Shown here: positions 3,828 to 51,773 of the stretch, piece after piece
Layout: every line of letters starts with the position of its first letter
How positions within the stretch are numbered: the first letter of the stretch is position 1
Program-made: the position numbers and the translations under genes
Assembly (NCBI RefSeq): GCF_004101785.1
Contig: NZ_CP035130.1
Coordinates: 1,240,001-1,304,000, forward strand
Direction: 5' to 3'
DNA: 64,000 nucleotides
From: Gudongella oleilytica
GTDB taxonomy: Bacteria > Bacillota > Clostridia > Tissierellales > Tissierellaceae
The notes under the pieces: model-generated
Seen by the model: only the letters and a program-made list of their open reading frames with translations
Told to the model about the DNA's origin: nothing
The model's database searches: none

Positions 3828-5870
3828 TTACTTAGTTTCCTCATCATCACCGGCAACTGATTCTTCTGCTTCAGCTTCCTCAACGACTGCCTCTTCAGCA
3901 ACTGTTTCCTCAACGGCTGTATATTCAGCGATGGGTTCCTCAACAGCCTCAGCTTCCATTTCTGCTTCTGCTGGCTCTACTGAGTCCTCAATTGCATCTT
4001 TTGCGCTCAGGCTGATCTTCTTGTCAGCTTCGTTGATCTCAGTTATCTTTACCATAAGCTTTTGACCAAGCTTTAGTACATCAGAAGGCTTCTCGACATG
4101 TTCTTTGGAAATCTGAGATACATGAAGCAATCCATCGACTCCCTTTATCACTCGTACGAATGCTCCGAAATCGAGAATGTTTACTATCTCTCCTTCTATA
4201 ACGTCGCCGACCTTATAGTCTCTTACAAACACTTCCCATGGCTCTTCTGTAGTTTGCTTCAAGCCAAGTGATATTCTGTTTTTATCCATATCAAATGCAA
4301 GTACCTTTACCTCAACCTTGTCGCCTTCCTTAAGGACATCTGATGGATGCTTGACTCTGAACCATGCAAGATCAGAAATATGGATAAGCCCATCGATTCC
4401 GCCAAGATCTACGAAAGCACCAAAGTCAGTAAGTCTTTGAACAGTACCTGCCAGCGTCTTGCCTACCTCTATCGTCTCCCAAAGAGCTTTTCTCTTGGCA
4501 TCGGACTCAGTTTTTTCTATCGCTTTTCTGGAAAGGATCATTCTTCTCTTCTGTATATCGAAATCAATTATTTTAGCCCTTAGGGTCTTACCCTTGAACT
4601 GGTTCAAATCTGAAACATAACTCATTGATATCTGTGATGCTGGCATAAATCCGTTAACACTGTTAACCATGACGGTTAGTCCGCCCTTAACTGCATTAAT
4701 TACTTTTGCTTCTACGATTTCCTCATTCTTGAAGGATTCCTCAAGAACCTCCCAATCCTTAATGAAGCCAACCCTTTTAGCTGAAAGAACAACGTTTCCT
4801 TCTCCATCGTCAAGCTTAACTACAAATACGTCTATCTCGTCGCCAACCTTGAAAAGGTCCTTAGGATTTACATCGCCATCCTTTGACAGCTCATCTCTTG
4901 TGATTATACCATCGCTTTTGTAATTGATATTGACCATTACCTCATTGTTTGTTACATAGAGCACAGTTCCTTTGAGGACCTCTCCCCTGTTGATTCTCTT
5001 GAATGAGCTCTCGATTGCTTCCATCATCTCATCTTTGTTGTAGTTCTCCATTACCTTAACAGCCTCCTTAATTATCCGGTCAGGTGTTGAAGCACCTGCG
5101 GTTATTCCTATTGTATTAAAATTTTGTAGCTCTTGTAAAGCTAATTCTTCCACTGTTTCTATAAGATAAACATTATTGCAGTACTTTCTGCTGATTTCTG
5201 CTAACTTGGTCGTGTTTGAGCTGGTTTTCCCGCCGATCACTATCATGGCATCAACTGTTTGAGCCAGCTCTGCAGCTGAATCCTGCCTTGCTCTGGTGGC
5301 ATTGCAGATCGTATTGAATACCTCTGATTCTCCAGATTTCTCCTTGACGATATCAGATAAAAGCTGAAACTTTTCAAGTCTGTTGGTAGTCTGAGACACT
5401 ACACATACTTTTTCAAGTTTTGGAAGCTGCATCGCTTCTTCCTCTGAATTGATGATGAATGCCTTGTCGTTGCACCAGCCATTTATCCCTACTACCTCCG
5501 GGTGCTCGGGATCTCCTATTATTACTATGTCATAACCTTTTTCACTGTAAGCCCTAACTCTTTTATGCACTGCCTTTACGTATGGGCAGGTACAGTCGAT
5601 TACTGAGAGACCCATCTGTTCAGCTTTATCCTGAATGGTCTCCGGAACCCCGTGTGATCTGAATATAAGCCTCCCCATCTCAAGGTCCTCAAAGCTCTCA
5701 AGAGTTGTAAGTCCTTTTTCCTCAAGTTCTTCTACAGCCTGGGGATTATGGATCAATGGTCCGTAAGAATATACCCTTTCACCATCCTTATCAAGCTCTT
5801 CAAGAGTCATTTTGACAGCTCGGTCTACACCGAAACAGAATCCTGCATTTTTTGCTATTATTATTTCCAA
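3828..5870 (-). CDS. ispH: Fused IspH (HMBPP reductase) - S1 RNA-binding protein
   Basis: Bifunctional 680-residue protein. Residues 1 to about 285 are 4-hydroxy-3-methylbut-2-enyl diphosphate reductase, the last step of the MEP isoprenoid pathway; the three [4Fe-4S] cysteines (Cys12, Cys95, Cys189) and the substrate histidines (His41, His73, His123) are present. Residues about 300 to 625 contain four S1 OB-fold repeats, as in ribosomal protein S1, and the last 50 residues form an Ala/Glu-rich acidic tail. Such fusions are known in Clostridia, so this is not a sequencing artefact. The start is TTG with GGGAGG upstream. It follows cmk and plsC, matching the classic cmk-plsC-ispH-rpsA order. 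The S1 part probably supplies an S1-like translation or RNA-binding function. Confidence 0.95.
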   Translation of the reverse strand: MEIIIAKNAGFCFGVDRAVKMTLEELDKDGERVYSYGPLIHNPQAVEELEEKGLTTLESFEDLEMGRLIFRSHGVPETIQDKAEQMGLSVIDCTCPYVKAVHKRVRAYSEKGYDIVIIGDPEHPEVVGINGWCNDKAFIINSEEEAMQLPKLEKVCVVSQTTNRLEKFQLLSDIVKEKSGESEVFNTICNATRARQDSAAELAQTVDAMIVIGGKTSSNTTKLAEISRKYCNNVYLIETVEELALQELQNFNTIGITAGASTPDRIIKEAVKVMENYNKDEMMEAIESSFKRINRGEVLKGTVLYVTNNEVMVNINYKSDGIITRDELSKDGDVNPKDLFKVGDEIDVFVVKLDDGEGNVVLSAKRVGFIKDWEVLEESFKNEEIVEAKVINAVKGGLTVMVNSVNGFMPASQISMSYVSDLNQFKGKTLRAKIIDFDIQKRRMILSRKAIEKTESDAKRKALWETIEVGKTLAGTVQRLTDFGAFVDLGGIDGLIHISDLAWFRVKHPSDVLKEGDKVEVKVLAFDMDKNRISLGLKQTTEEPWEVFVRDYKVGDVIEGEIVNILDFGAFVRVIKGVDGLLHVSQISKEHVEKPSDVLKLGQKLMVKITEINEADKKISLSAKDAIEDSVEPAEAEMEAEAVEEPIAEYTAVEETVAEEAVVEEAEAEESVAGDDEETK

Positions 5871-19095: not shown

Positions 19096-19914
19096 TCAGT
19101 CCTTTGATCCATCAGCAATTTCAGATAAGATGTGGATGGAGGATGGGTCCGAATGACCAAGGAGCTGTCCTACTCTTTCAGGCTCCTCTCCACGGCTCAA
19201 CATATGTACCGCAAATGAGTTTCTAATGCTCTGTGGAGTAGTTTCACTCCCATAGCTCTTTATGATCTTCCAGAGGCCCTGTCTTGACAATCTGCTTCCG
19301 CTCCTGTTTGTAAACAGCGGCTCTTCCGGTCTGCTGTCCGGTCTGTACTTCAAAATATAAGAATCAATGCTGTCTCTTGGTTCAGAATCCATAGGTACGA
19401 GCCTGCCCATTATGGAGATAGTCTTACCCTTCAGGTCAATATCGCCTATGGACAGTGATATGATTTCAGATACCCTGAGCCCTGTTCCATACATAAGCTG
19501 GATTATCGCCCTGTCTCGTGCACCCTTTTCATTTTCTCCAGTTGGCAGTTCCAGAAGACTTCCAATCTGGTTTTCTGTAAGAACAGCAGGCTTTCTCCGC
19601 TCTTTTCTGGGTGGCTTAAGATTTCTCGTAGGGTCTGTCTTTACGATCCCTTCATCCCTTAAGTACTGAAACAGGCACCTTATGCTTGACAGGTGTCGTG
19701 ATATGGTTGAAGGATTTTTCCCTGACCTCTGAAGATTGAGCATGTACCTGATGATGATGGTGCTGCTTACATCATCGGGCTCATTCAGCTTCAGGTCATT
19801 AAGATACTCCTGAAATCCTTTGATATCTCCAATGTATGCTTCTGCCGAGCTCTTCACAAGGCTCTTCTCATCCGTTATATAATTCGAAAATCCTCTGATC
19901 CATTTATCAAACAT
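19096..19914 (-). CDS. XerD-like tyrosine-recombinase homologue lacking the catalytic tyrosine
   Basis: A 272-residue homologue of XerD, with the SAM-like N-terminal core-binding domain (about 1-85) and the catalytic domain (about 105-265). Numbering from ATG 19914 (GGAG upstream): catalytic Arg147 in GTGLRVSE, Arg231 and His254 in LGHSD are kept. The beta-hairpin lysine is missing, the first His of HxxR is Gln228, and the tyrosine nucleophile position is Leu263 (IHILSE where active enzymes have an IYTH-type motif). It therefore should not cut DNA. It occupies the usual xerD site between the nudix gene and pdp, so it probably descends from xerD; a working XerC/D or XerS/H must be elsewhere. 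Intact frame argues for a retained, perhaps DNA-binding, role. Confidence 0.85.
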   Translation of the reverse strand: MFDKWIRGFSNYITDEKSLVKSSAEAYIGDIKGFQEYLNDLKLNEPDDVSSTIIIRYMLNLQRSGKNPSTISRHLSSIRCLFQYLRDEGIVKTDPTRNLKPPRKERRKPAVLTENQIGSLLELPTGENEKGARDRAIIQLMYGTGLRVSEIISLSIGDIDLKGKTISIMGRLVPMDSEPRDSIDSYILKYRPDSRPEEPLFTNRSGSRLSRQGLWKIIKSYGSETTPQSIRNSFAVHMLSRGEEPERVGQLLGHSDPSSIHILSEIADGSKD

Positions 19915-19929
19915 AGCCAGCTCCAAAAT

Positions 19930-20478
19930 TTATTTTTCAGCTCTGTTCTTAACGATCTGTGCAGCGGTCTGTATGCCTATAATGGTCTTGCTGTCCATTA
20001 TCTCACCCCTGCTTATCATCCTGTTGAGTTCCTCAAGACTATAGCTTTCAATGTCAATAAATTCTCCAGCCTCCAGCTCCTGTTCACCAGGAGTAAGTTC
20101 TTCTCCAAGGAAAAGATATATCTTCTCTGTACTGAATCCCGGAGAAGTGTAGAACTCCAGAAGGTACTCAAGCCTGGCTGCAGAATATCCGGTTTCCTCC
20201 TTAAGCTCCCTAAGTGCGGTCTCCCTCGGCTCCTCATTGACCTCAAGTTTACCTGCCGGCAGTTCAAGAAGCACTTGGCCTGTCGCCTTCCTGTATTGCT
20301 TTACAAGCAAAACCTTTCCACTTTCATCAAAGGCAACAACTCCTACTCCGCCAGGATGTTCAACTATTTCTCTCTTGGAGTACTTTTTATCAGGCAGCTC
20401 GACCGTGTCTATTCTAAGGTTCACTATTTTGCCCTCATATATCCTGTCGCACTTCATGGTTTTTTCTTCGTAAGTCAT
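19930..20478 (-). CDS. nudF: ADP-ribose pyrophosphatase, Nudix family
   Basis: Hydrolyses ADP-ribose to AMP and ribose 5-phosphate. The Nudix box is complete (from GKLEVNEE to RELKEETGY) and the upstream LLELPAG is typical of the NudF subgroup. 182 residues from ATG 20478, with GGGAGGG upstream. The position before xerD matches the Bacillus order. Confidence 0.9.
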   Translation of the reverse strand: MTYEEKTMKCDRIYEGKIVNLRIDTVELPDKKYSKREIVEHPGGVGVVAFDESGKVLLVKQYRKATGQVLLELPAGKLEVNEEPRETALRELKEETGYSAARLEYLLEFYTSPGFSTEKIYLFLGEELTPGEQELEAGEFIDIESYSLEELNRMISRGEIMDSKTIIGIQTAAQIVKNRAEK

Positions 20479-20529
20479 TTTGACCCTCCCAACCATTGAT
20501 TATCTTTATATTATACCACATAAAGGCTT

Positions 20530-22209
20530 TTATTTAACCTTATTTGACAGCTCCAGCATCTCTCTTGCATGCTTCAGGGTCGTTTCGGTGGTACTCGCTC
20601 CACTTATAAGCCTTGCTAACTCCTCGATCCGTTCCTCTCTGGACAGCTTCCTCACAAGGGTTATAACGTCTTTGTCCCTCGAATCCTTGCTTATGGCAAA
20701 ATGCGTATCCGCGAGAGCTGCAATTTGAGGCAGGTGGGATACGGATATTACCTGGTGGTTCACTGCTATCCTTTTGATCTTTTCCCCCACGACCTGTGCG
20801 GTCCTTCCGCTTATCCCAGTGTCTATTTCATCAAAAATAAGTACCGGAATGCCATCCCCGTCGGCAATTATTCCCTTAAAGGCAAGCATTATACGGGACA
20901 TTTCTCCACCTGATACTATCCTTGAGAGAGGCTTCAAGTCCTCGCCCGGATTAGTGGATATAAGGAACTCTACCTCATCGATCCCGTATTTCCCTACCTC
21001 ATTCTTTCGGGTGAACGAGGTCTTGAAAAGGACATTCTCCATACTAAGAGACTGGAGCTCAGATTCCATGCTGCGATCAAGTCTCTCAGCAGCCTCCCTC
21101 CTGAGAATACTAAGTCTCTCAGCCTTTTTAAGCCTTTCAGCCTGGAGAGCATTGATCCTCTGGTCAAGCTGGGACAGCTCTTTGTCGAGGTTAAGAAGCT
21201 TTTCTCTTCTGTCCTCTGTCTTGTACTTAAACTGCATTATCAGTTCAACGGAATTTCCATACTTCTTCTTAAGAGAGTTCACCTTATCCAGTCTCTCCCT
21301 CAAAGAGAAAAGCTTCTCCTCGTCAATCTCCTGCGACTCGCAATAATGGGATAGCTCCCTGCCAATATCCTCAAGTTCATACCTCAGAGAATCTAATTTA
21401 TTGCTATATTGTAATAATTTTTCATCATATTTCTTAATATCCTTTAATGAAGCAATTGCTCTGTCTAAAAGAGCCAGTGCTCCTTCCTGTCCATACTCTC
21501 TGCTACTAATGGCATCCCCTGCCAAAGAAGCTCCTGCTATAATATCCTTTAGGTTGAAAAGCCTTTTGAATTCCAGTTCAAGCTTCTCGTCATCCTCTGG
21601 AGTGAGGTTTGCTTCAGCGATTTCATTTATCTGAAACTCGAGAAGATCCAGTTCCCTCTCCCTTTCCTGAGATGAAATTACCAGCTCTTCGCGCTTTCCT
21701 GCAAGCTCCCTGTAAATCTCATGATCCCTGGCAAGCTCTGCAATGATACTTCTTCCCTCGGCGTCTAAAAGCATATCCAGTATCCTGATGTGGTTTGATA
21801 CATCCAGCAAAGACTGATGCTCATGCTGGCCGAATACATCCACCAGCCCCTTGGTAAAAGAGGAAAGAGTTGACAATGTAACAGGTCTTCCGTTTATTCT
21901 GGACACACTTGGATATTTCTCGGAAAGCTCCCTTGTCAGTATCAGCCAGTCCTCAGCCTCGAATCCCTGTGAAGAGAGCGCTTCCCTGAATTTGTCGTTC
22001 AATGCGAACATTGCCTCCACGACCGCCTTATCACAGCCGCTTCGAATCATTTCACGGCTTCCTCTGCCTCCCAGTACCAGCTCCAACGCCTCGATAATAA
22101 TAGATTTACCTGAGCCAGTCTCTCCTGTGAGGAGATTAAAGCCCTCCTCAAATTCAATCGTCAGATCTTCAATTATGGCAAAATTACTGATGTGGAGCTC
22201 CTTTAGCAT
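20530..22209 (-). CDS. recN: DNA repair protein RecN
   Basis: SMC-like ATPase that acts early in double-strand-break repair. Walker A GETGSGKS near residue 35, the ABC signature SGGEMSRIM and Walker B LIFDEIDTGISG near residue 460 flank a long antiparallel coiled coil. 559 residues, normal. It directly follows tlyA with 12 bp between; the argR gene that usually lies between them in Firmicutes is absent. Confidence 0.95.
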   Translation of the reverse strand: MLKELHISNFAIIEDLTIEFEEGFNLLTGETGSGKSIIIEALELVLGGRGSREMIRSGCDKAVVEAMFALNDKFREALSSQGFEAEDWLILTRELSEKYPSVSRINGRPVTLSTLSSFTKGLVDVFGQHEHQSLLDVSNHIRILDMLLDAEGRSIIAELARDHEIYRELAGKREELVISSQERERELDLLEFQINEIAEANLTPEDDEKLELEFKRLFNLKDIIAGASLAGDAISSREYGQEGALALLDRAIASLKDIKKYDEKLLQYSNKLDSLRYELEDIGRELSHYCESQEIDEEKLFSLRERLDKVNSLKKKYGNSVELIMQFKYKTEDRREKLLNLDKELSQLDQRINALQAERLKKAERLSILRREAAERLDRSMESELQSLSMENVLFKTSFTRKNEVGKYGIDEVEFLISTNPGEDLKPLSRIVSGGEMSRIMLAFKGIIADGDGIPVLIFDEIDTGISGRTAQVVGEKIKRIAVNHQVISVSHLPQIAALADTHFAISKDSRDKDVITLVRKLSREERIEELARLISGASTTETTLKHAREMLELSNKVK

Positions 22210-22221
22210 GGCTTCCCTCCG

Positions 22222-23019
22222 TTATCCTAAATTATCGTGGGCCTCATCCAGTACCTTTTCAATAATTTCTTCAGATATTACTCGCTTGGCCTTAGAGAGG
22301 CAAAGTAAAAACTCAATGTTACCAGTAGTTCCGGTTATAGGTGAAAACGTAAGTCCTTCAGGGTACAGACCGCACTGCTCTCCATGAAGGATGACGGCCT
22401 TGATTACCTCCTTGTGGGTAGATCTGTCCCTGACTATGCCCTTCTTCCCGACCTTATCCCTTCCTGCTTCAAACTGGGGCTTAACAAGAGCAACTACCCT
22501 TCCATCCTCCTTAAGAAATGACGAGGCGACAGGAAGGATATGCTTCAGACTAATAAAGCTGACATCGATGGATACAAAGTCAAGTCTATCCTCTATGGAA
22601 TCCTCCTCCATATAGCGGATATTGGTCCTTTCCATGACAAGCACCCGAGGATCGTTTCTGAGTCTCCAGTCAAGCTGACCATAGCCAACGTCGACTGCAT
22701 ATACCTTCGATGCGCCGGATCGCAGCATGCAGTCAGTAAATCCCCCGGTTGAAGCGCCCATATCCATGCAGACGTTCCCCTGAAGGTCAATACCGAACTC
22801 GGCCATTGCCTTCTCAAGCTTCAAGCCTCCCCTGCTCACATACTGGAGAGGATTGGTCCTTATATGTATTTCAACGGTCTCATCCAGATATTCCCCCGGC
22901 TTATCGACCCGTTTTTCTCCAACATATACCGAACCCTCCATGATCACTCTCTTGCCCTTTTCCCTTGACTCGACCAGGCCTTTCTCATGCAGGATAATGT
23001 CAGCTCTCTTCTTAACCAT
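22222..23019 (-). CDS. tlyA: TlyA-family rRNA (cytidine-2'-O)-methyltransferase / hemolysin A
   Basis: Predicted 2'-O-methyltransferase of 16S and 23S rRNA cytidines. An N-terminal S4 RNA-binding domain (KRADIILHEKGL) precedes an FtsJ-like domain with the SAM motif DMGASTGGFTDC and the catalytic-lysine segment LVKPQFEAG. 265 residues. It starts 2 bp downstream of the OapA stop and belongs to the nusB-to-recN transcript. Confidence 0.92.
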   Translation of the reverse strand: MVKKRADIILHEKGLVESREKGKRVIMEGSVYVGEKRVDKPGEYLDETVEIHIRTNPLQYVSRGGLKLEKAMAEFGIDLQGNVCMDMGASTGGFTDCMLRSGASKVYAVDVGYGQLDWRLRNDPRVLVMERTNIRYMEEDSIEDRLDFVSIDVSFISLKHILPVASSFLKEDGRVVALVKPQFEAGRDKVGKKGIVRDRSTHKEVIKAVILHGEQCGLYPEGLTFSPITGTTGNIEFLLCLSKAKRVISEEIIEKVLDEAHDNLG

Positions 23020-23021
23020 GA

Positions 23022-23645
23022 TCAGTTCTCCTTGTCCTTCCTGACCTTCTCGCGAACAGGCTTCTTTTTTGGAGGCATAAACTCAAGGCCCGTCAGTCTT
23101 TCAAAAAAGCCTATTACCCTTGATACGCTGTAAATTATCTCCTCATAGTGATAGGCGGCAATCGACTTGCCAACTCCCTTTCCCCCTACAGTAAGAGAAG
23201 CCGTAACTGCTGTAAGAAGTATGGTAAGAAGTGTGCCGTCTACAAACCCAAGCCTTGTCATAAGCTTATAGATTATGCTGGTCGCAACAGCTCCCGAGAT
23301 AATTCCGCTTATGTCTCCAATGACATCGTTGCAGAAATTGCTTACCTGGCTTGCATTGCGGACAAGCTTAATGGCTGTCCTCGCCTCTCCGATCTTATTT
23401 GAGGCCATAGCGTGAAACGGTTTTTCATCAGCAGTTGTCACTGAGATCCCAATTATATCAAACAATATTCCAATGAATATGAAAAACAACAAAATCAAGA
23501 AACCAAGTATAACATCCAGGTTTTGAACCAGGCTTTCTGCAAAAATAGATAAGCCAACGGAGATAATAAAGGTCCACAGGGTGATAAAAAACACCCATTT
23601 CATATTATACTTCCGATAAAACCCTACGTCATCCTTCTTTGCCAT
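23022..23645 (-). CDS. oapA: OapA, membrane partner of OLE RNA
   Basis: A 207-residue polytopic membrane protein. Hydrophobic segments lie at about 17-40, 44-72, 112-130 and 137-155, with a charged central segment (DEKPFHAMASNKIGEARTAI, then KLVRNASQ) and a strongly basic C-terminal tail. Location is diagnostic: it is directly downstream of the ~618-nt OLE RNA gene, in the isoprenoid/xse/tlyA neighbourhood. OapA homologues bind OLE RNA and bring it to the membrane in Bacillus halodurans. ATG 23645 has GGAGG upstream; the 10 extra residues to 23675 are not needed. Assignment rests on context, size and topology rather than an alignment. Confidence 0.82.
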   Translation of the reverse strand: MAKKDDVGFYRKYNMKWVFFITLWTFIISVGLSIFAESLVQNLDVILGFLILLFFIFIGILFDIIGISVTTADEKPFHAMASNKIGEARTAIKLVRNASQVSNFCNDVIGDISGIISGAVATSIIYKLMTRLGFVDGTLLTILLTAVTASLTVGGKGVGKSIAAYHYEEIIYSVSRVIGFFERLTGLEFMPPKKKPVREKVRKDKEN

Positions 23646-23710
23646 TTCTTTCCTCCATAACAGCGTCAACCTCATTGAATTGATTTATATGTATATTATC
23701 CAATTATATG

Positions 23711-23736
23711 AAAAAGCTGATAGCGAAGCTATCAGC
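23711..23736 (-). terminator. Intrinsic terminator at the 3' end of OLE RNA
   Basis: A perfect 9-bp stem (23716-23724 with 23728-23736), 3-nt loop, followed on the minus strand by TTTTT. It defines the RNA 3' end and lies 66 bp before oapA, so oapA expression needs readthrough or an extra start. Confidence 0.88.
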
Positions 23737-24328
23737 CTAACCTAGTGGTAGTAACCAGAGTAAATCTTACGGCTTCAGGTCCAGTAGGATTTCCCAAGAA
23801 GGAACTGCCCGTCGCCGGTGCAGCGGTTTCCCTTTATTCCTCCATCTGTCCTGTTGCCAAAGACAGAACTGGATTGCCACTTAGTCCGCACTGTAATCCT
23901 CTTGTTACCTCATAGCTTGAACAGTCTAGGAGTTTTCCTCAACAGCCAGTCTATTCCCTAGCCTCTTTTGCAGATTAGGTTTCGATAACAGAATCTGATC
24001 AGAACTGGGCCCCGTCTGGTCAAATTGAACTTATCATCCGCACTACTCCACTCAAGGCAGGCTACTCTGCACATTTTATTAGATATTTAGTGTCTTGCAG
24101 GTTTATCACGATATAATACTATTTATCACTATATCATGTCTCCACGAAGGCAGGGTCCACGCCCGCATGCCATTGCAGATCGCCCCATCCTTCTTACTCC
24201 TTATGAAAGCCCACGACTGGGCGTCGCAAGCCAAGCATAAAGAACTTCATCGATATGCCCTTTGACGGATTTTTAGCCCCGCCTTCAAGAATAGCTGTGC
24301 TGACTAGAATACTGTACCACTTATTGCT
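23711..24328 (-). ncRNA. ole: OLE RNA (ornate, large, extremophilic RNA)
   Basis: A noncoding gene of about 618 nt between ispA and oapA. Evidence: no open frame on either strand; a promoter (TTGCAA-17-TATAAT) just upstream and a strong terminator at the end give a transcript of the known OLE length (about 610 nt); many local hairpins, for example GCCCA-GTCG-TGGGC (24209-24222) and a CTGTC/GACAG stem near 23852; and the hallmark gene order xseA-xseB-ispA-OLE-oapA-tlyA-recN. Base composition is richer in G+C than nearby intergenic DNA. OLE forms a membrane ribonucleoprotein with OapA and is linked to growth under alcohol, cold, magnesium and energy stress. I could not align it to the Rfam model, so identity rests on length, structure potential and synteny. 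Confidence 0.87.
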
Positions 24329-24334
24329 AAGCCG

Positions 24335-24363
24335 ATTATATCACAATTTCCTCCATTTTGCAA
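24335..24363 (-). promoter_or_regulatory. Promoter of OLE RNA
   Basis: TTGCAA (24358-24363), exactly 17 bp, then a consensus TATAAT (24335-24340). The predicted start is near 24328. The -35 box lies just beyond the ispA stop at 24368, so OLE can be made independently of the upstream operon. Confidence 0.8.
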
Positions 24364-24367
24364 TGGA

Positions 24368-25222
24368 TCATACCTGTCTGCCGGCGAGCTCAAGAGTCAG
24401 ATCCCGGAAAAATGATGTGTCAACTTCATCGAGAGAGTCCAGTATTGAAACAGCTCTATTGCTAAGCTCCAACACCTTCTTCTCCGCCTCTTCCCTTGAA
24501 TGGAAGGATAAATAGGTACACTTTTCAATACTCTCGTCCTTCTCGTCGTCAAGAAGGTCGTCCTGTATTTGATATGCAAGCCCAAGCCTCAATCCAAAGT
24601 CCCTCAGCTTTTCAATATGCTCTGAATCGGCACCTCCAAGGATCGCTCCTGAAATTATGCTTGCCTGTATCAGGGCAGCAGTTTTACTCTTGTACATAAA
24701 CAAAAGGCTTTCCTCATCCATGGATTCCAACTCAGATCTTAGGTCAATAGCCTGTCCTCCAATCATTCCCTTACAGCCGGAGGCTCTTGCTATTTCCTGC
24801 ATAGCCTTAATGGATTCCATATCACAGCTTTCCTTTGCAGCAGACAGCATAGTCTCAAATGCAAGGTTCAAAAGACCATCTCCTGCAAGTATTGCCATTG
24901 CTTCGCCAAAGACCTTGTGGCTTGTAAGCTTCCCTCTTCGGTAGTCGTCATTATCCATTGCAGGAAGATCGTCATGTATCAGCGAATAAGTGTGGATCAT
25001 CTCAATAGCTATGGCATAGGGCAGCGCTTTGTATATATAATCGTGATACATCTCATAAGCCTTTATCGTCATAAGTGGCCTTAGCCTCTTTCCGCCTGTA
25101 AAAAGGCTGTACTCCATAGCCTGAGAAATCTCGAGCTCATAGGGGGTCCTCGACTTTATAGCATTCATAAGGCCCTCATCAATTAGCCTAAGATACTCAT
25201 TCCTGTTATCAGTAGCTCTCAT
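24368..25222 (-). CDS. ispA: Polyprenyl (farnesyl) diphosphate synthase
   Basis: Condenses IPP with DMAPP/GPP to farnesyl diphosphate. Both aspartate-rich motifs are intact: LIHDDLPAMDND (first) and QIQDDLLDDEKD (second). 284 residues from ATG 25222, preceded by GGAGGG; this start overlaps the xseB end by 14 bp. The short spacing and lengths match bacterial FPP synthases. Downstream is OLE RNA. Confidence 0.94.
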   Translation of the reverse strand: MRATDNRNEYLRLIDEGLMNAIKSRTPYELEISQAMEYSLFTGGKRLRPLMTIKAYEMYHDYIYKALPYAIAIEMIHTYSLIHDDLPAMDNDDYRRGKLTSHKVFGEAMAILAGDGLLNLAFETMLSAAKESCDMESIKAMQEIARASGCKGMIGGQAIDLRSELESMDEESLLFMYKSKTAALIQASIISGAILGGADSEHIEKLRDFGLRLGLAYQIQDDLLDDEKDESIEKCTYLSFHSREEAEKKVLELSNRAVSILDSLDEVDTSFFRDLTLELAGRQV

Positions 25223-25463: not shown

Positions 25464-26688
25464 CCTTAGCCTCCTCGAAAACCTCTTCAACCCTTGCCTT
25501 TAGGCTGCCATCCTTAAGTCTTACTGAGATCACATCCTTTGGTCTTATCCCTTCGATGCTTCTTATTATCCTTCCATCAGGATCAGTCACTATTCCATAG
25601 CCCTTTTCAAGTGGAAGCCCCGGATCGGAAAGCTTAAGTCTGGCATCATACCCGGCAAGCCTTTCCCTGTAGCCTGAAAAGCTTCGAAACATTGAATGCT
25701 CCAGTTGTCTGAATATGCCATCAAGCTCCATTTGCTTATCTGAAAGGGACCTGTAGGGACTTGAGTAGGATAACCTCTTCATTAGTCCATCCAGCTTATC
25801 ATCCTCCCTGGAGATTTTTCTCCCCATTTCTCCAAGGACCGAGCTCCCAATCGAGCTTACTTCATCCAAAAGGGTCTTTCTATCAGGTACTGACAGCTCT
25901 GCTGCAGCAGAGGGAGTAGCAGCTCGGACATCAGCGACAAAGTCGGCTATTGTAAAGTCCGTCTCATGACCGACAGCTGAAATCACCGGTGTGTCCAAAT
26001 CTACTATGCATCTTGCAAGAGCCTCGTCGTTAAATGCACCAAGCTCTTCGAAGGATCCTCCACCCCTTCCTACGATTATCACGTCTATATCTTCCCTTGC
26101 ATCAAGGTACTTAAGCGCTTTTATTATATCCTTGGGAGCCCCGTCTCCCTGAACCAAAGCTGGATAAAGCAGCATATTTACAGCTGGGTAACGTCTCTTG
26201 AGTATACTAGTAATATCTCTAATTGCAGCACCCGTTGAGGATGTGACTACACCGATTTTCTTAGGTATCCTCGGTAAGGGTACCTTCCTCTCCTGGTCGA
26301 ACAGGCCTTCCTCAGCAAGCTTCTTTTTCAGTTCCTCAAAAGCCCGGTACAGATCTCCAAGGCCTTGTTTTCCCATCTTTCTGGCATATACCTGATAGCT
26401 TCCATCCTTCTCATAAACGGATACCTGCCCCGATATCACGACTCTCATGCCATCCTTCGGTTTGAAATCTATAGCCTCGTTATCGTTCTTGAACATAACG
26501 CACTTTATCCTGCTCTTGTCGTCCTTCAGGCTAAAATACATATGTCCGCTGTAATGGTGGGTGAAGTTGGAAATTTCACCCTCTATCTGCAGATATGTAA
26601 GCAATATATCTCCTGCAAACAGCTTCTTGATATAGCCGTTTACCTCGCTGACCATCAATGGCCTCATACGATCATTCCCTTCCTTCAT
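25453..26688 (-). CDS. xseA: Exodeoxyribonuclease VII large subunit
   Basis: Catalytic subunit of ExoVII, 411 residues, with the N-terminal OB fold (IEGEISNFTHHYSGHMYFSLKD region) and the catalytic GRGGGSFEEL and SAVGHETDFT motifs. Start at ATG 26688 with AAGGAG upstream overlaps the preceding TsaD-like gene by 17 bp; an alternative ATG is at 26667. Confidence 0.93.
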   Translation of the reverse strand: MKEGNDRMRPLMVSEVNGYIKKLFAGDILLTYLQIEGEISNFTHHYSGHMYFSLKDDKSRIKCVMFKNDNEAIDFKPKDGMRVVISGQVSVYEKDGSYQVYARKMGKQGLGDLYRAFEELKKKLAEEGLFDQERKVPLPRIPKKIGVVTSSTGAAIRDITSILKRRYPAVNMLLYPALVQGDGAPKDIIKALKYLDAREDIDVIIVGRGGGSFEELGAFNDEALARCIVDLDTPVISAVGHETDFTIADFVADVRAATPSAAAELSVPDRKTLLDEVSSIGSSVLGEMGRKISREDDKLDGLMKRLSYSSPYRSLSDKQMELDGIFRQLEHSMFRSFSGYRERLAGYDARLKLSDPGLPLEKGYGIVTDPDGRIIRSIEGIRPKDVISVRLKDGSLKARVEEVFEEAKDEN

Positions 26689-27610
26689 TAAGTCTCCTTG
26701 TCAGCCAGGCTATGCCTACTGCATTGTCGGAGGATAATCCGGATTTTGTAAAGCTTAGAAGTCCCTGTGGAAATATTTCAGCAAGTCTTTCTCTTATGAT
26801 CCTGTTCTCTGCAACGCCGCCTACGACGATTACCCTTTCATATGCTTCAAGAGAAAGTCCGTATCGGATGAGTGCTTCGCAGACTTTAGCTGAAGTTAAG
26901 AATAATGTATTGCAAATATCCTCGGGCTTTGATCCCTTATCGATTTCCTTTGAAAACTTGTTCTCAAGCCCTGAGAGGTTTACACAGCCATCCTTTGGAT
27001 CAACTTTTAAGCTAATAGGCAAACCGGATCCCATAATTGAGAGCCTGTCCATCTCCATCCCGCTGGGAAATCCCATCCCAAGCTTGACTCCTACACGATC
27101 AACCAGCTGGCCCAGACTTATATCAAGCGTTCCTCCAAGAATTTTTGTAGAAAATTCATCAGATAAGTCAGTAAGTTCAACCAACTCAGTGGTGCCTCCG
27201 GATATATGAAGCAACAGAGCTTTCTCTATGCCCGGATTGTCCATAAGTGCACAAGCCCCATGCCCATCCTGATGACTAAGCCTAAATAAAGGTACCTTAA
27301 GCATAGCTGCAACAGCTCTGCCAAAGCCTTCCCCTGCAAGGAAAACCGGCATATACGAGCCCTCCTCAGATCGGGGCCTTGTGCTTACACCAACTGCCTG
27401 TATACCCTTTGTATCGCACCTTAGCTCCTCAAACAGCTCAGGAAGGTTCTTTACATGCTGAAAAAGGGCCTCCTGCTGTCTAAGACCCCTTTCTCCCTCT
27501 TTTACCTTCAGGAGCCTTCTTAGATCCTGGACGATATTCCCATCCTGGTCTACGACGGATATTGAAGTAGTATAGTTACTTGTATCCAAACCCAAGTAAA
27601 GTCTACTCAT
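26672..27610 (-). CDS. TsaD/Gcp-like paralogue (peptidase M22 family)
   Basis: A 312-residue ASKHA-fold protein related to TsaD, the threonylcarbamoyl transferase for t6A37. It has the metal-binding HQDGH motif, ISGGTTELV and VVGGVAEN. This divergent paralogue between nusB and xseA recurs in Clostridia beside a genuine tsaD elsewhere, and its exact role is unknown. ATG 27610 overlaps nusB by 8 bp; 13 extra upstream residues are unlikely to be translated. I would not call it tsaD itself: sequence around the catalytic centre is shorter and less conserved. Confidence 0.85.
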   Translation of the reverse strand: MSRLYLGLDTSNYTTSISVVDQDGNIVQDLRRLLKVKEGERGLRQQEALFQHVKNLPELFEELRCDTKGIQAVGVSTRPRSEEGSYMPVFLAGEGFGRAVAAMLKVPLFRLSHQDGHGACALMDNPGIEKALLLHISGGTTELVELTDLSDEFSTKILGGTLDISLGQLVDRVGVKLGMGFPSGMEMDRLSIMGSGLPISLKVDPKDGCVNLSGLENKFSKEIDKGSKPEDICNTLFLTSAKVCEALIRYGLSLEAYERVIVVGGVAENRIIRERLAEIFPQGLLSFTKSGLSSDNAVGIAWLTRRLNEGRE

Positions 27611-28013
27611 CTTTCTCAAGGCCTCTGACAAGGCCTCCCAGTACTCCATTTACATACTTGTAGGAATCATCTGAGCTGTATTTTTTCGTTATCTCAATTG
27701 CTTCATTGATGGATACCTCGACCGGGATATCATCCCTGTAAAGAATCTCGTATGCAGCCAGTCTCAGAGTCGACAGATCGACCTTAGCCAGCCTTTCAAG
27801 AGACCATCCCTCAAGGTTTTTTGTGATAAGTGAATCTATATGCTCCCTGTTATCAAGCACTCCCTGGATCGCTTCCTCAATAAATTTTGCCTCGTTTCCT
27901 TCAAACTGGAAGTTCTCAAGGAAGGCTCCTACTACATCCTCCCCAAACTCGCCGTTACATTCGATTTGAAACAAAAGCTGCATTGCACCTTCTCTTGCCT
28001 GCTTTCTACCCAT
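27603..28013 (-). CDS. nusB: Transcription antitermination factor NusB
   Basis: All-helical RNA-binding protein of 136 residues that with NusE (S10) loads onto boxA of rRNA leaders. The ARE-GAMQLLFQ N-terminus and the ILYRDDIPVEVSINEAIEI-like C-terminal segment (cut) are diagnostic. Head of the conserved nusB-xseA-xseB-ispA block. Confidence 0.93.
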   Translation of the reverse strand: MGRKQAREGAMQLLFQIECNGEFGEDVVGAFLENFQFEGNEAKFIEEAIQGVLDNREHIDSLITKNLEGWSLERLAKVDLSTLRLAAYEILYRDDIPVEVSINEAIEITKKYSSDDSYKYVNGVLGGLVRGLEKDE

Positions 28014-47819: not shown

Positions 47820-49019
47820 CTATACCGTCTGCATCATGTCGAACATTGGCAGATACATCGCGATAACGATGAAGCCTATCATTATTGCCATAAAGACTAT
47901 CATTATGGGTTCTAAGAGTGAGGTCAGCTTAGTTAGTGCAACCTCAACCTCTTCATCGTAGAAGTCTGCAGTTTTCATAAGTATGTCGTCCAGAGAACCT
48001 GATTCCTCACCGATCTTAATCATAGAATCAACCATTGGAGGGAAAACCTCAACATCCTTTATCGATCTTGATAGGGGTACTCCCTTTCTGATCTGCTCGA
48101 TACCGTCCAGCAATCTACCCTCAATAACTTTGTTGTTAACAACTCTTGACACAACCTCCATTGACTTTATGAGAGGGATTCCTGAATCCATAAGTGTCGA
48201 TAATGTTCTTGTAAAGCGTGAGGTCACTACCTTTGCAGTTGTGTCCTTTACAACAGGCAATCTCAACTTTAGCTTGTCGAAGTTTAAGCGCCCTTCATCA
48301 GTCCTCATATATGCTCCCAAGCTGGTGGATATTGCAATCAGTGCTCCAGCGTACAGATACCAGTAGGTTTTGATTGAATCACTTATCCCTAACAACAGTC
48401 GTGTGGGTCCAGGTAGAGGTACTCCACTGCCTGTAAACATACCGACGAAGGTCGGCATTACGAATACCAGCATAAAGACAACTACTGCTACACTTACTAC
48501 TGCAAGGGCTGCCGGGTAGATCATCGAGCTTTTTACCTTGTTTTCTATCTTGTTTTCTTTTTCAAAGTGCACTGCCATTCTTTCAAGGATCGCATCAAGG
48601 TTACCACTGACCTCTCCCGCCTCCACCATACTTGTAAGTATTGATGGAAACACTAGTGAGTGCTTTTTCATACCCTCTGATAGAGCAAGGCCTTTTTGAA
48701 CGTCCTCATTGACCACTCCAACAGCAGCCTTTAGTGTCTTGTTTTCTGTCTGAATCTCGAGGATATCGAGGCACTTTACAATACCCAAGCCTGCATCTAT
48801 CATTGTGAAGAACTGCCTGCAGAAAACTGCAAGGTCCTTTTTCTTCACCTTTTTCTTGAACAGTTCAAACCTGGCTTCCTCTCCAACGTCTCTTTCAACC
48901 TGAAGAGGCATGTAGCTGTTGGCTTTTATCATGGCAATAACGTCTGATTCACTGGCGGCATCGAATACGCCCTCGACAGTCTGTCCATTTTTTGCTATGG
49001 CTCGGTACTTGTACTTCAT
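47820..49019 (-). CDS. pilC: PilC, inner-membrane T4P platform protein
   Basis: 399-residue polytopic platform protein of the GspF family, with two repeated cytoplasmic T2SSF domains (LAVFCRQFFTMIDAG and TRFTRTLSTLMDSGIP) and three membrane segments. ATG 49019 has GAGG upstream; the earlier GTG lacks support. Works with PilB and PilT. Confidence 0.93.
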   Translation of the reverse strand: MKYKYRAIAKNGQTVEGVFDAASESDVIAMIKANSYMPLQVERDVGEEARFELFKKKVKKKDLAVFCRQFFTMIDAGLGIVKCLDILEIQTENKTLKAAVGVVNEDVQKGLALSEGMKKHSLVFPSILTSMVEAGEVSGNLDAILERMAVHFEKENKIENKVKSSMIYPAALAVVSVAVVVFMLVFVMPTFVGMFTGSGVPLPGPTRLLLGISDSIKTYWYLYAGALIAISTSLGAYMRTDEGRLNFDKLKLRLPVVKDTTAKVVTSRFTRTLSTLMDSGIPLIKSMEVVSRVVNNKVIEGRLLDGIEQIRKGVPLSRSIKDVEVFPPMVDSMIKIGEESGSLDDILMKTADFYDEEVEVALTKLTSLLEPIMIVFMAIMIGFIVIAMYLPMFDMMQTV

Positions 49020-49028
49020 CAGCCTCAC

Positions 49029-50081
49029 CTACACAATGTATTTTTTGATCTCTTCCTGGTTGACCGCCTGGGTCAGCGCAATGTCTTTTCTTAGAAGTCC
49101 TCTGTTATAAAGATCAACCAAAGACGAATCCATGGTCTGCATCCTGAACTTCCCGCCTGTCTGGATGCTGGTATCTATCTGGTGTATCTTGTCCTCACGT
49201 ATTAGATTCCTTATGGCAGGAGTTGCAATCATTATCTCATGAGCTGCAACCCTTCCCTTGCCGTCTCCCTTGGGCAGAAGCTGCTGGGATATTACGGCCT
49301 GGATAACAGATGCAAGCTGTACTCTTACCTGCTGCTGCTGATATGGAGGAAAAACGTCTATGATACGGTCTATCGTCTTTGCAGCTCCAAGGGTATGGAG
49401 TGTGGAAAGGACCAAGTGCCCTGTCTCAGCTGCTGTTATTGCTATTGATATGGTGTCAAGGTCTCGCATCTCACCGACCAGGATAACATCCGGGTCCTGC
49501 CTGAGTGCTCCTCTTAAAGCACTTGAGAAGCTTTGCGAGTCCGATCCTATCTCTCTTTGGTTAACTATCGACTTCTGGTGTCTGTGAAGGTATTCTATCG
49601 GATCCTCCAGTGTCAGTATGTGGACGTTACGTTCCCTGTTGATCTGGTCTATCATCGTTGCAAGGGTAGTTGATTTACCGCTTCCTGTAGGCCCTGTTAC
49701 AAGTATCAAACCTCTTGGAAGCCTTGTAAGATCACTTATTACACTTGGCAAACCAAGCTGCTGCATTGTTGGTATCTCAAGTGGTATGATACGAAGCGCC
49801 ATTCCATAGCTGCCTCTTTGAATATATGCATTGACCCTGAATCTGCCCTTTCCGGGGCTTGCATAGGAAAAGTCCACCTCTCCCTTGTCCTTGAGAACCT
49901 CGAATTGTTTTTCACTCAAGGTCTGCTTTACAAGCTCCTCGGTGTCACTTGGCGAAAGTGGCTTATCGCCCAAATGGATCAAGGCACCGTTGATCCTAAG
50001 ATTTGGAGGGATCCCGACAGTGATATGAATATCCGATGCGACTCTTTTTAATCCTTCATCCACAATTTGATCTATATTCAA
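49029..50081 (-). CDS. pilT: PilT, T4P retraction ATPase
   Basis: 350-residue hexameric secretion ATPase that retracts pili. Walker A GPTGSGKST, the Asp box and His box (LSTLHTLGAAKTIDR), and the AIRNLIRE motif diagnostic of PilT. It suggests true retraction and twitching. Confidence 0.94.
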   Translation of the reverse strand: MNIDQIVDEGLKRVASDIHITVGIPPNLRINGALIHLGDKPLSPSDTEELVKQTLSEKQFEVLKDKGEVDFSYASPGKGRFRVNAYIQRGSYGMALRIIPLEIPTMQQLGLPSVISDLTRLPRGLILVTGPTGSGKSTTLATMIDQINRERNVHILTLEDPIEYLHRHQKSIVNQREIGSDSQSFSSALRGALRQDPDVILVGEMRDLDTISIAITAAETGHLVLSTLHTLGAAKTIDRIIDVFPPYQQQQVRVQLASVIQAVISQQLLPKGDGKGRVAAHEIMIATPAIRNLIREDKIHQIDTSIQTGGKFRMQTMDSSLVDLYNRGLLRKDIALTQAVNQEEIKKYIV

Positions 50082-50093
50082 TGGTACCGCCTC

Positions 50094-51773
50094 CTATCCA
50101 AGGGTAAAGCCTACCCTCATGACCTCTTCAAAGCTTGTCTTACCCTGCTCTGCCAGTGCTTTTGCTGACTGGAACAGAGTTGTCATACCCTGCTCCAAAG
50201 CTTTTTCCCTTATTTTGTCGGTATTGGCTCCGGTGTCGATCAGCTTACGAATCTCTTCGTTTACAGGCATTATCTCGTGAACTGCCGCTCTTCCTGAGTA
50301 GCCTGCGTTGCAGGCGTTGCAGCCTACGGGCTTGTGCAGTACCAGGGTCTTGTTTGTATCCATTCCAAACATTTTCAGCTCATTGTAGCCTGCCTCATAG
50401 GGCTGCTTGCATTTGTTGCAAAGGGTTTTTACAAGCCGCTGAGATACGATACCGATTAACGCTGAAGATACTATATATGGCTCAACACCCATATCTATAA
50501 GTCTGGCTATGGTCGAGGGGCTGTCGTTGGTGTGAAGTGTGGACAGTACAAGGTGTCCTGTTATCGCAGCCCTTACTGCTATCTCAGCCGTCTCGCTGTC
50601 ACGTATCTCTCCAACCATTACTATGTCAGGGTCCTGACGGAGTATGGAACGGAGCCCGGATGCAAAGGTCAGTCCGGATTTTACGTTTACCTGCACCTGG
50701 TTTATTCCGCTTAAGCGGTACTCTACAGGGTCTTCAACCGTGATTATATTTTTCTCTATCTGGTTCAGCTCTCTCAGAACTGTGTAAAGCGTTGTAGTTT
50801 TGCCGCTTCCGGTAGGCCCGGTTACAAGGATCATGCCGTAGGGCTGTCTTAGAATCGTATCAAACAATCCTAAGTTGTGCTGGCTTAATCCAAGTCCTTC
50901 CTTGTTGAAGTTGAAGCTGGTTTTGTCCAATAGCCTTAGAACTATTTTCTCTCCGTATACAGTCGGAAGAGTCGAAATACGCATATCGATCTCCCTGTCA
51001 TTGATCTTTGTTTCCACACGGCCGTCCTGAGGTACTCTCTTTTCAGCTATGTTCATCTTGCCGATGATCTTGATACGGGTTACTATGGCTGAGTGATTTG
51101 ACCTTGGAAGGCTCATAATCTCCCTCAGGTCCCCGTCGATACGGAAACGGATCCTGATTTCCTCGGCGTATGGCTCAATATGGATGTCGGATGCTTTGCT
51201 CCTTGTCGCCTGCTCGAAAAGTGAATTTATAAGCCTTACTATTGGAGCTGAGGCGACCTCGGCCTCCTCTACATCATCAAAGTCGTTTTCAGTATATACT
51301 GCTCCATCTGTGAATTCCTCAAGCACCCTCTTGGCACTTGCACCTGAGTAAAACCGGTCTATTACTTTGTTTATATCAGCACCGGTAGCAAGGACTGATT
51401 CAAGCTCCATTTTCGTATAGAGCTTTATATCGTCGACAGCAAAGAAGTTCAATGGGTCTACCATGGCGACTATCAGCTTGCCATCCTTTTTATCTATGGG
51501 GATAAGCTTGTACTTTCTAACTATGCTCTCAGGCAGTATTGTTGCAACTGACTGGTTTATCTCATATTTGTTAAGGTCGATCCTGGGAAAGCCCAGCTGA
51601 AATTCGAGGACCTCAACTATATCCTCCTGGGTCACAAAGCCAAGCTCTACAAGAACCTCTCCCAATTTGCGGTTGGTTCCGTTTTGGGACTCAAGGGCTG
51701 TGTTAAGCTGTTCCGAGGATATTTTGCCTGCATACAGCAATAATTCCCCAATTTTAAGCGTTGATTTCTGCAT
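50094..51773 (-). CDS. pilB: PilB, T4P extension ATPase with MshEN domain
   Basis: 559-residue assembly ATPase. Walker A GPTGSGKTT, Walker B and His box, plus a tetracysteine zinc site (CNKC and CNAC). The N-terminus has two 24-residue MshEN motifs (residues 7-30 and 36-59; KIGELL... and KLGEVL...) with Lys in place of the usual Arg. MshEN domains bind cyclic di-GMP, so pilus extension may be c-di-GMP controlled. First gene of the locus. Confidence 0.93.
   Translation of the reverse strand: MQKSTLKIGELLLYAGKISSEQLNTALESQNGTNRKLGEVLVELGFVTQEDIVEVLEFQLGFPRIDLNKYEINQSVATILPESIVRKYKLIPIDKKDGKLIVAMVDPLNFFAVDDIKLYTKMELESVLATGADINKVIDRFYSGASAKRVLEEFTDGAVYTENDFDDVEEAEVASAPIVRLINSLFEQATRSKASDIHIEPYAEEIRIRFRIDGDLREIMSLPRSNHSAIVTRIKIIGKMNIAEKRVPQDGRVETKINDREIDMRISTLPTVYGEKIVLRLLDKTSFNFNKEGLGLSQHNLGLFDTILRQPYGMILVTGPTGSGKTTTLYTVLRELNQIEKNIITVEDPVEYRLSGINQVQVNVKSGLTFASGLRSILRQDPDIVMVGEIRDSETAEIAVRAAITGHLVLSTLHTNDSPSTIARLIDMGVEPYIVSSALIGIVSQRLVKTLCNKCKQPYEAGYNELKMFGMDTNKTLVLHKPVGCNACNAGYSGRAAVHEIMPVNEEIRKLIDTGANTDKIREKALEQGMTTLFQSAKALAEQGKTSFEEVMRVGFTLG

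Follow-up and report, generated by a model that had tools for sequence, protein, structure and literature searches.

An OLE RNA locus of Gudongella oleilytica with a sequence-conserved terminator hairpin between the RNA and oapA

OLE RNAs are, to our knowledge, among the largest conserved bacterial RNAs, and we know of no established biochemical role for them. The genes spoIVB and spo0A are common neighbors of ole. According to passages of PMC12265935, the OLE particle of Halalkalibacterium halodurans helps cells to tolerate Mg2+, cold, and alcohol as well as poor carbon sources. For the same species, the searchable text of two further papers reports an operon in which ole has a separate promoter of its own (PMC9723947) and gives rise to an RNA whose 3′ end is processed (PMC11332333). 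Our search of the H. halodurans locus (L087) recovered OLE at 538.6 bits, an ispA-ole-oapA order (by eye), and a promoter-like site at the matching place. No terminator was found between ole and oapA in that locus, whereas the locus described here has one.

We analyzed a window of 64,000 nucleotides from Gudongella oleilytica. A sequence-only reading had placed an OLE RNA of about 618 nt in this window, a call open to revision if Rfam returned no match or if the neighboring protein was something other than OapA. RF01071 matches strongly over its whole length (model positions 1-616) at 24336-23729 on the minus strand (472.6 bits against a cut-off of 50 bits; E 1.4e-135), and OLE is the sole Rfam family to reach its own cut-off in the window. 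The identification is correct, and the RNA is a further member of the known OLE class. The distance from the predicted start (∼24328) to the U tract is ∼618 nt, in agreement with the earlier estimate of length. The gene order is xseA-xseB-ispA-[OLE]-oapA-tlyA-recN and thus includes the ispA-[OLE]-oapA neighborhood known for OLE, as had been claimed. The gap between the ispA stop and the oapA start is ∼722 nt, and oapA lies immediately downstream, 83 nt from the end of the Rfam match. Features of the locus are as follows:

20530-22209, minus strand: recN (TIGR00634, 513 bits)
22222-23019, minus strand: tlyA rRNA methyltransferase (TIGR00478, 268.7 bits)
23022-23645, minus strand: oapA, 207 aa (41% identity to H. 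halodurans OapA; weak CNNM match, 24.5 bits against a cut-off of 28.4)
23651-23656, minus strand: ribosome-binding site of oapA, GGAGGA (sequence)
23714-23738, minus strand: sequence-conserved 3′ terminator hairpin, inner GGCUGAUAGC-UUC-GCUAUCAGCU, with U tract (terminator scan, folding, motif)
23729-24336, minus strand: full-length OLE RNA (RF01071)
23809-23816, minus strand: GGCGACGG loop, putative OapB-site region (sequence and Rfam match)
24007-24012, minus strand: GGGCCC loop containing the palindrome GGCC, putative kissing loop B3 of the dimer (passages of PMC12286853 place such a palindrome in L9.3)
24245-24254, minus strand: AUCGAUGAAG, within the k-turn region to which OapC binds (identical letters in H. 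halodurans OLE primers)
24269-24276, minus strand: A-rich loop CUAAAAAU, putative dimer contact B1 in L4 (sequence; role from passages of PMC12286853)
24335-24363, minus strand: OLE promoter TTGCAA-17-TATAAT with extended -10 (promoter scan)
24368-25222, minus strand: ispA, farnesyl diphosphate synthase, before OLE (NCBIfam NF045485, 286.3 bits against a cut-off of 275; start codon by eye)

The window OLE has in common with RF01071 and with the cryo-EM dimer of C. acetobutylicum OLE (accessible text of PMC12286853) an A-rich loop, a GGCC kissing loop, and a k-turn. Dimer contacts are kept by sequence, with CUAAAAAU at 24276-24269 and GGGCCC at 24012-24007, and the window loops probably correspond to the published numbering. 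The roles of loops and k-turn are those given in the searchable parts of PMC12286853 and PMC9723947. The structures differ at the 3′ end: RF01071 leaves its last 21 positions unpaired and stops before the terminator hairpin, and the match in the window ends inside the terminator, where this OLE carries a hairpin.

The protein encoded at 23645-23022 (minus strand), proposed earlier to be OapA, is identical to H. halodurans OapA (taken from L087) at 80 of 194 amino acids (41%; E 6e-53). Its nearest named relatives among the best 80 of 309 matches are from a 'Soehngenia' MAG (72%) and Gudongella (71%). Nine OapA matches in relatives (L023, L018, L015, L016, and others) contain one or two stop codons, which we take as overrun of the match past the C-terminal end. 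A weak CNNM domain is common to OapA and the MpfA/CorC Mg2+ transporters. The MpfA family combines CNNM with CBS and CorC_HlyC domains, whereas the window protein has a CNNM match under threshold and matches neither CBS nor CorC_HlyC. The genome encodes one CorC_HlyC (MpfA-type) protein, separate from OapA. Across relatives, 33 such proteins occur in 38 genomes with OLE versus 34 in 22 genomes lacking it, which agrees with the anticorrelation of OLE and MpfA-type proteins published in passages of PMC11332333.

Candidates for other particle partners are encoded elsewhere in the genome. OapB (96 aa; match to PDB 7K9B, 'OLE-associated protein B', E 1.7e-13) is directly upstream of infA, and OapB-like ORFs were seen by eye at infA in all 30 genomes inspected, its own included and regardless of OLE (taken from 58 genomes with an infA match). 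The OapC candidate is an L7Ae protein (41.3 bits) located between the end of rpoC and rpsL (neighbors by eye), which we take to be the usual position of OapC (YbxF). Ribosomal protein bS21 is also present. With OapA, OapB, an OapC candidate, and bS21, the strain carries the usual parts list of OLE.

The sequence-only reading held that this locus extends the range of OLE in anaerobic Clostridia. It does not, because 151 of the 391 genomes sampled from the class contain OLE, which, according to accessible text of PMC11332333, was already known from 2,822 Bacillota genomes. Among 60 relatives, OLE and OapA each occur in 38, and comparison of the tables by eye indicates that these are the same 38 and that both are absent from the same 22. 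In each of the 38, OapA is just downstream of OLE. Likewise, an OLE signal is upstream of OapA in all 80 named loci (best 80 of 309), of which at least eight are partial or split through contig ends or gaps and one (L085) scores only 17 bits. In L045, the partial OLE adjoins a run of 30 Ns, an assembly gap. Absence of OLE and OapA as a block provides OLE-plus and OLE-minus relatives for comparative work.

The promoter proposed in the earlier reading, TTGCAA-17-TATAAT, is located at 24363-24335 (minus strand), with 10 of 12 matches and a TG before the -10. Counting in the named loci left out L085 and L086; of the 70 scored for promoters, 61 have a promoter-like site close to where OLE begins, versus 16.1 expected from shuffles. 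The proposal of an OLE promoter separate from ispA thus stands as to the site but not as news, given the report for H. halodurans in the searchable text of PMC9723947. A sigma-28-like reading of GCTGATAG was dropped since no -35 partner was seen by eye in the window.

At the other end, the predicted perfect terminator is present at 23738-23714 (minus strand) as 11 pairs, a 3-nt loop, and a T run, the combination of GC-containing stem and T tract that characterizes intrinsic terminators. The segment 23760-23700 folds at -19.1 kcal/mol, and none of 200 shuffles was equally stable. Across the named loci, a terminator was found at the OLE 3′ end in 35 of 78, versus 0.75 expected. The letters of the hairpin are conserved as GCTGATAGC-loop-GCTATCAGC-Tn, such that sequence is kept and not merely shape. 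Calling the hairpin at 15 or more of the 20 letters of AGCTGATAGC...GCTATCAGCT (loose score, 14 of 20), we found it in 47 of 80 named OLE/oapA loci and, counting the window, in 27 of 30 loci of relatives that have OLE (30 of 38 examined; the two sets overlap in some genomes). All ten positions pair in 44 of the 47 loci and nine pair in the other three. Loops are 3-7 nt in these loci (3-5 nt in 42) and reach 16 nt in relatives.

A convincing hairpin of this type is absent from 33 of 80 OapA loci, 31 of which fall below the loose score and two of which (L060 and L095, at 14 of 20) were judged to be chance because 15 of 1600 shuffles did equally well. It is likewise absent from three of 30 OLE-plus loci of relatives. 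OLE therefore has no general need of the hairpin. The hairpin stands at varying distances from the OLE core, with intervening insertions in several loci. In L060 (Thermotalea, 4653-4974), ∼230 nt with an inverted repeat of their own separate OLE from the hairpin position; this insert seems to replace the 5′ arm, and the 3′ arm, GCTATCAGCC, remains.

Presence of the hairpin was mapped on a tree of 72 OLE RNAs, from which eight incomplete loci of the 80 were excluded. The rows include part of the 5′ arm, which makes the comparison slightly circular. A supported branch (98/93) of 36 rows has the hairpin in 36 of 36. Record names assign this branch to Tissierellales and to Natronincolaceae of Peptostreptococcales. 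The surrounding group of 48 rows has six without it, and it is absent in sampled Bacilli, C. senegalense, Caloramator, Oscillospiraceae, and Syntrophomonadaceae. Over the whole tree, the hairpin label changes five times, at least four of them by well-supported branches, and none of 500 shuffles was as low.

Rates of change within the 36-row branch, from which no row was dropped for want of the motif, distinguish the stem from its surroundings. Across the 18 positions of the inner stem, the mean is 0.5 changes per site and 13 positions never change, although locating the arms by likeness to the motif favors conservation somewhat. The six linker positions before the hairpin show 8-13 changes each, and the 574 OLE columns average 3.29 changes, with 40% unchanged. 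Among all 42 hairpin rows of the tree, the values are 0.89 for stem, 11-17 for linker, and 3.98 for OLE columns. The letters of the hairpin have thus hardly changed across two bacterial orders.

Terminators of tmRNA and RNase P in the same order lack such conservation. They resemble the OLE terminator in having a hairpin and T-rich tail, but their stems mostly differ from genus to genus whereas that of OLE is kept. The commonest 7-mer of the terminator arms occurs in 25 of 30 OLE, 6 of 30 tmRNA, and 4 of 30 RNase P loci, with terminators found in 29, 26, and 27 of 30, respectively. The control genomes differ from the OLE set and include some without OLE, and RNase P matches were under the family cut-off with approximate ends. 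Of 60 relatives, 25 carry a single copy of the exact palindrome. It is located at the OLE 3′ end in 24 of them, and the remaining one (G020) lacks OLE. These counts rule out a genome-wide shared terminator or a DNA-uptake-like repeat. Across the class, the exact palindrome was found in 7 of 391 genomes, at OLE 3′ ends in five; in the other two (G223 and G280, both lacking OLE), it follows unrelated genes. With OLE present in 151 of these genomes, the exact hairpin characterizes a single lineage rather than OLE in general.

Relatives without OLE show what is left when the locus is absent. The tlyA region was examined in 21 of the 22 (in G029, no tlyA match reached the cut-off). Sixteen have ispA and tlyA side by side, separated by 15-370 nt or, in two, with overlapping ends by extrapolation; three have ∼2 kb between the genes and two have no ispA in the stretch examined. 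The adjacency in 16 strains implies that OLE and oapA are missing jointly as a neat block. Two of these 16, from different families, keep a hairpin at the empty site, with 19 (G020) and 18 (G048) of 20 letters:

L164, 1500-1523: retained hairpin of G020, between ispA and tlyA
L217, 3049-3073: retained hairpin of G048, between ispA and tlyA (first seen by eye)

None of 4000 shuffles of each gap reached 17 letters, and both hairpins fold, with 1 and 4 of 200 shuffles equally stable in G020 and G048, respectively. The other 14 strains have no hairpin between ispA and tlyA. G014, a genus-mate of G020, lacks it. We read the two hairpins as the scar of a lost OLE locus; the hairpin can thus persist, for some time at least, after the RNA is gone, and its retention may reflect either selection or recency. 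A candidate oapA remnant in G020 (tblastn, E 0.009) was rejected because 85 of 400 shuffles were as good, as were 242 of 397 and 183 of 382 for oapA in G048 and G014. Searches with nhmmer returned no OLE remnants at empty sites.

Spacing between the hairpin and oapA bears on how oapA is expressed. The median distance to the oapA start is 47 nt; it does not exceed 50 nt in 27 of 47 loci (one of which, L079 at -12 nt, has a wrong start) and is longer in 20. In the window, it is 68 nt. Promoter-like sites of the scanned types occur between hairpin and oapA in seven loci, versus 7.2 expected from shuffles. The gap in the window has a lone TATAAT at 23708-23703, at which the scan scored no promoter. 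Because the short gap in most loci leaves little room for a promoter, oapA expression is predicted to depend mainly on read-through of the hairpin.

From the observed identities of OLE and OapA, the promoter- and terminator-like sites, and the conservation and spacing of the hairpin, we infer how 3′ end formation, read-through, and stoichiometry may be arranged at this locus. Transcription from a dedicated promoter behind ispA to a dedicated terminator would yield an OLE RNA of ∼618 nt, and in this lineage its 3′ end would be set by a hairpin of nearly fixed sequence. By homology, the RNA is expected to fold as the known dimer and to be anchored to the membrane by OapA, with OapB, the OapC candidate, and bS21 available in the cell for the particle. 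The hairpin would act as a valve at which most transcripts stop as OLE RNA and few continue to OapA, keeping the RNA abundant and the protein scarce and setting their ratio. We assign a probability of about 0.8 to this explanation of an OLE gene with own promoter, terminator, and particle, and a hairpin valve before oapA. A switch by antitermination, in which a hairpin arm pairs with a conserved OLE segment, found no support, as 50 of 60 shuffled arms in one case and 46 of 60 in the other matched the real arm.

A valve requires stability of the hairpin but not fixed letters, which suggests that the stem is recognized. We tentatively suggest that a protein or RNA recognizes GCUGAUAGC/GCUAUCAGC and regulates termination, and hence oapA, or ispA where OLE is gone. 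Near-invariance of the inner stem next to a linker with 8-13 changes per position, loops that vary (3-5 nt in 42 of 47 loci), the excess of one arm 7-mer over the tmRNA and RNase P controls, and retention at the empty site of two OLE-less genomes are all consistent with a sequence-specific control site. On the other hand, we have no candidate factor, and 14 other genomes with adjacent ispA and tlyA lack the hairpin. Conservation of the stem could also be explained if the hairpin were a 3′ terminal domain of mature OLE in this clade, either bound by a partner in the particle or stabilizing. That 27 of the 30 OLE-plus loci of relatives have it where OLE ends fits such a domain, as does a fraction of unchanged positions (13 of 18) above that of OLE columns (40%), but variation in its distance from the OLE core, intervening insertions, and persistence in two genomes without OLE leave this reading less likely than not.

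An ordinary inherited terminator with a stem that drifts slowly by chance would account for the intrinsic-terminator features and for the identical palindrome behind unrelated genes in G223 and G280. It is unlikely, because the order shows no such sequence conservation in its tmRNA and RNase P terminators and because changes have saturated the linker beside the hairpin. Least probable by far is a DNA operator or promoter element that is palindromic by chance. Although the near-perfect inverted repeat is what an operator would look like, the spacing of half-sites varies from 3 to 16 nt, there is no enrichment of promoters downstream, and the stem changes that preserve G-U pairs together with the T run that follows point to RNA. 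The hairpin may thus be a sequence-specific module under selection of its own, recognized by a factor and controlling read-through to oapA, that may outlive OLE and OapA and mark a regulatory partner not yet described; we offer this reading as a possibility, below even odds.

Term searches in the accessible texts on OLE returned no description of a terminator hairpin at its 3′ end, and the passages on a terminator read in PMC10898510 concern a riboswitch. A terminator of fixed sequence across a clade, and empty sites that keep the hairpin, appear not to have been described previously; the claim is provisional since key early papers on OLE and figures are outside the literature searched. An element of fixed sequence between OLE and its partner gene that is able to outlive the RNA offers a small, testable handle on OLE.

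Other genes of the window were seen alongside the locus. The sequence-only reading had noted a type IV pilus locus nearby. Genes of the type IV pilus/type II secretion type are indeed present at 47820-51773 (T2SSF and two T2SSE ATPases, one with MshEN), but they are ∼23 kb away and the window shows no sign of a link to OLE. In the interval 19096-22209, a NUDIX gene directly follows recN and is itself followed by a tyrosine recombinase (by eye); neither spoIVB nor spo0A was noticed among the ORFs listed for this interval. Adjoining xseA at 26672-27649 is a gene for a TsaD/Kae1-like protein (108.9 bits against a cut-off of 207.8), perhaps a diverged paralogue.
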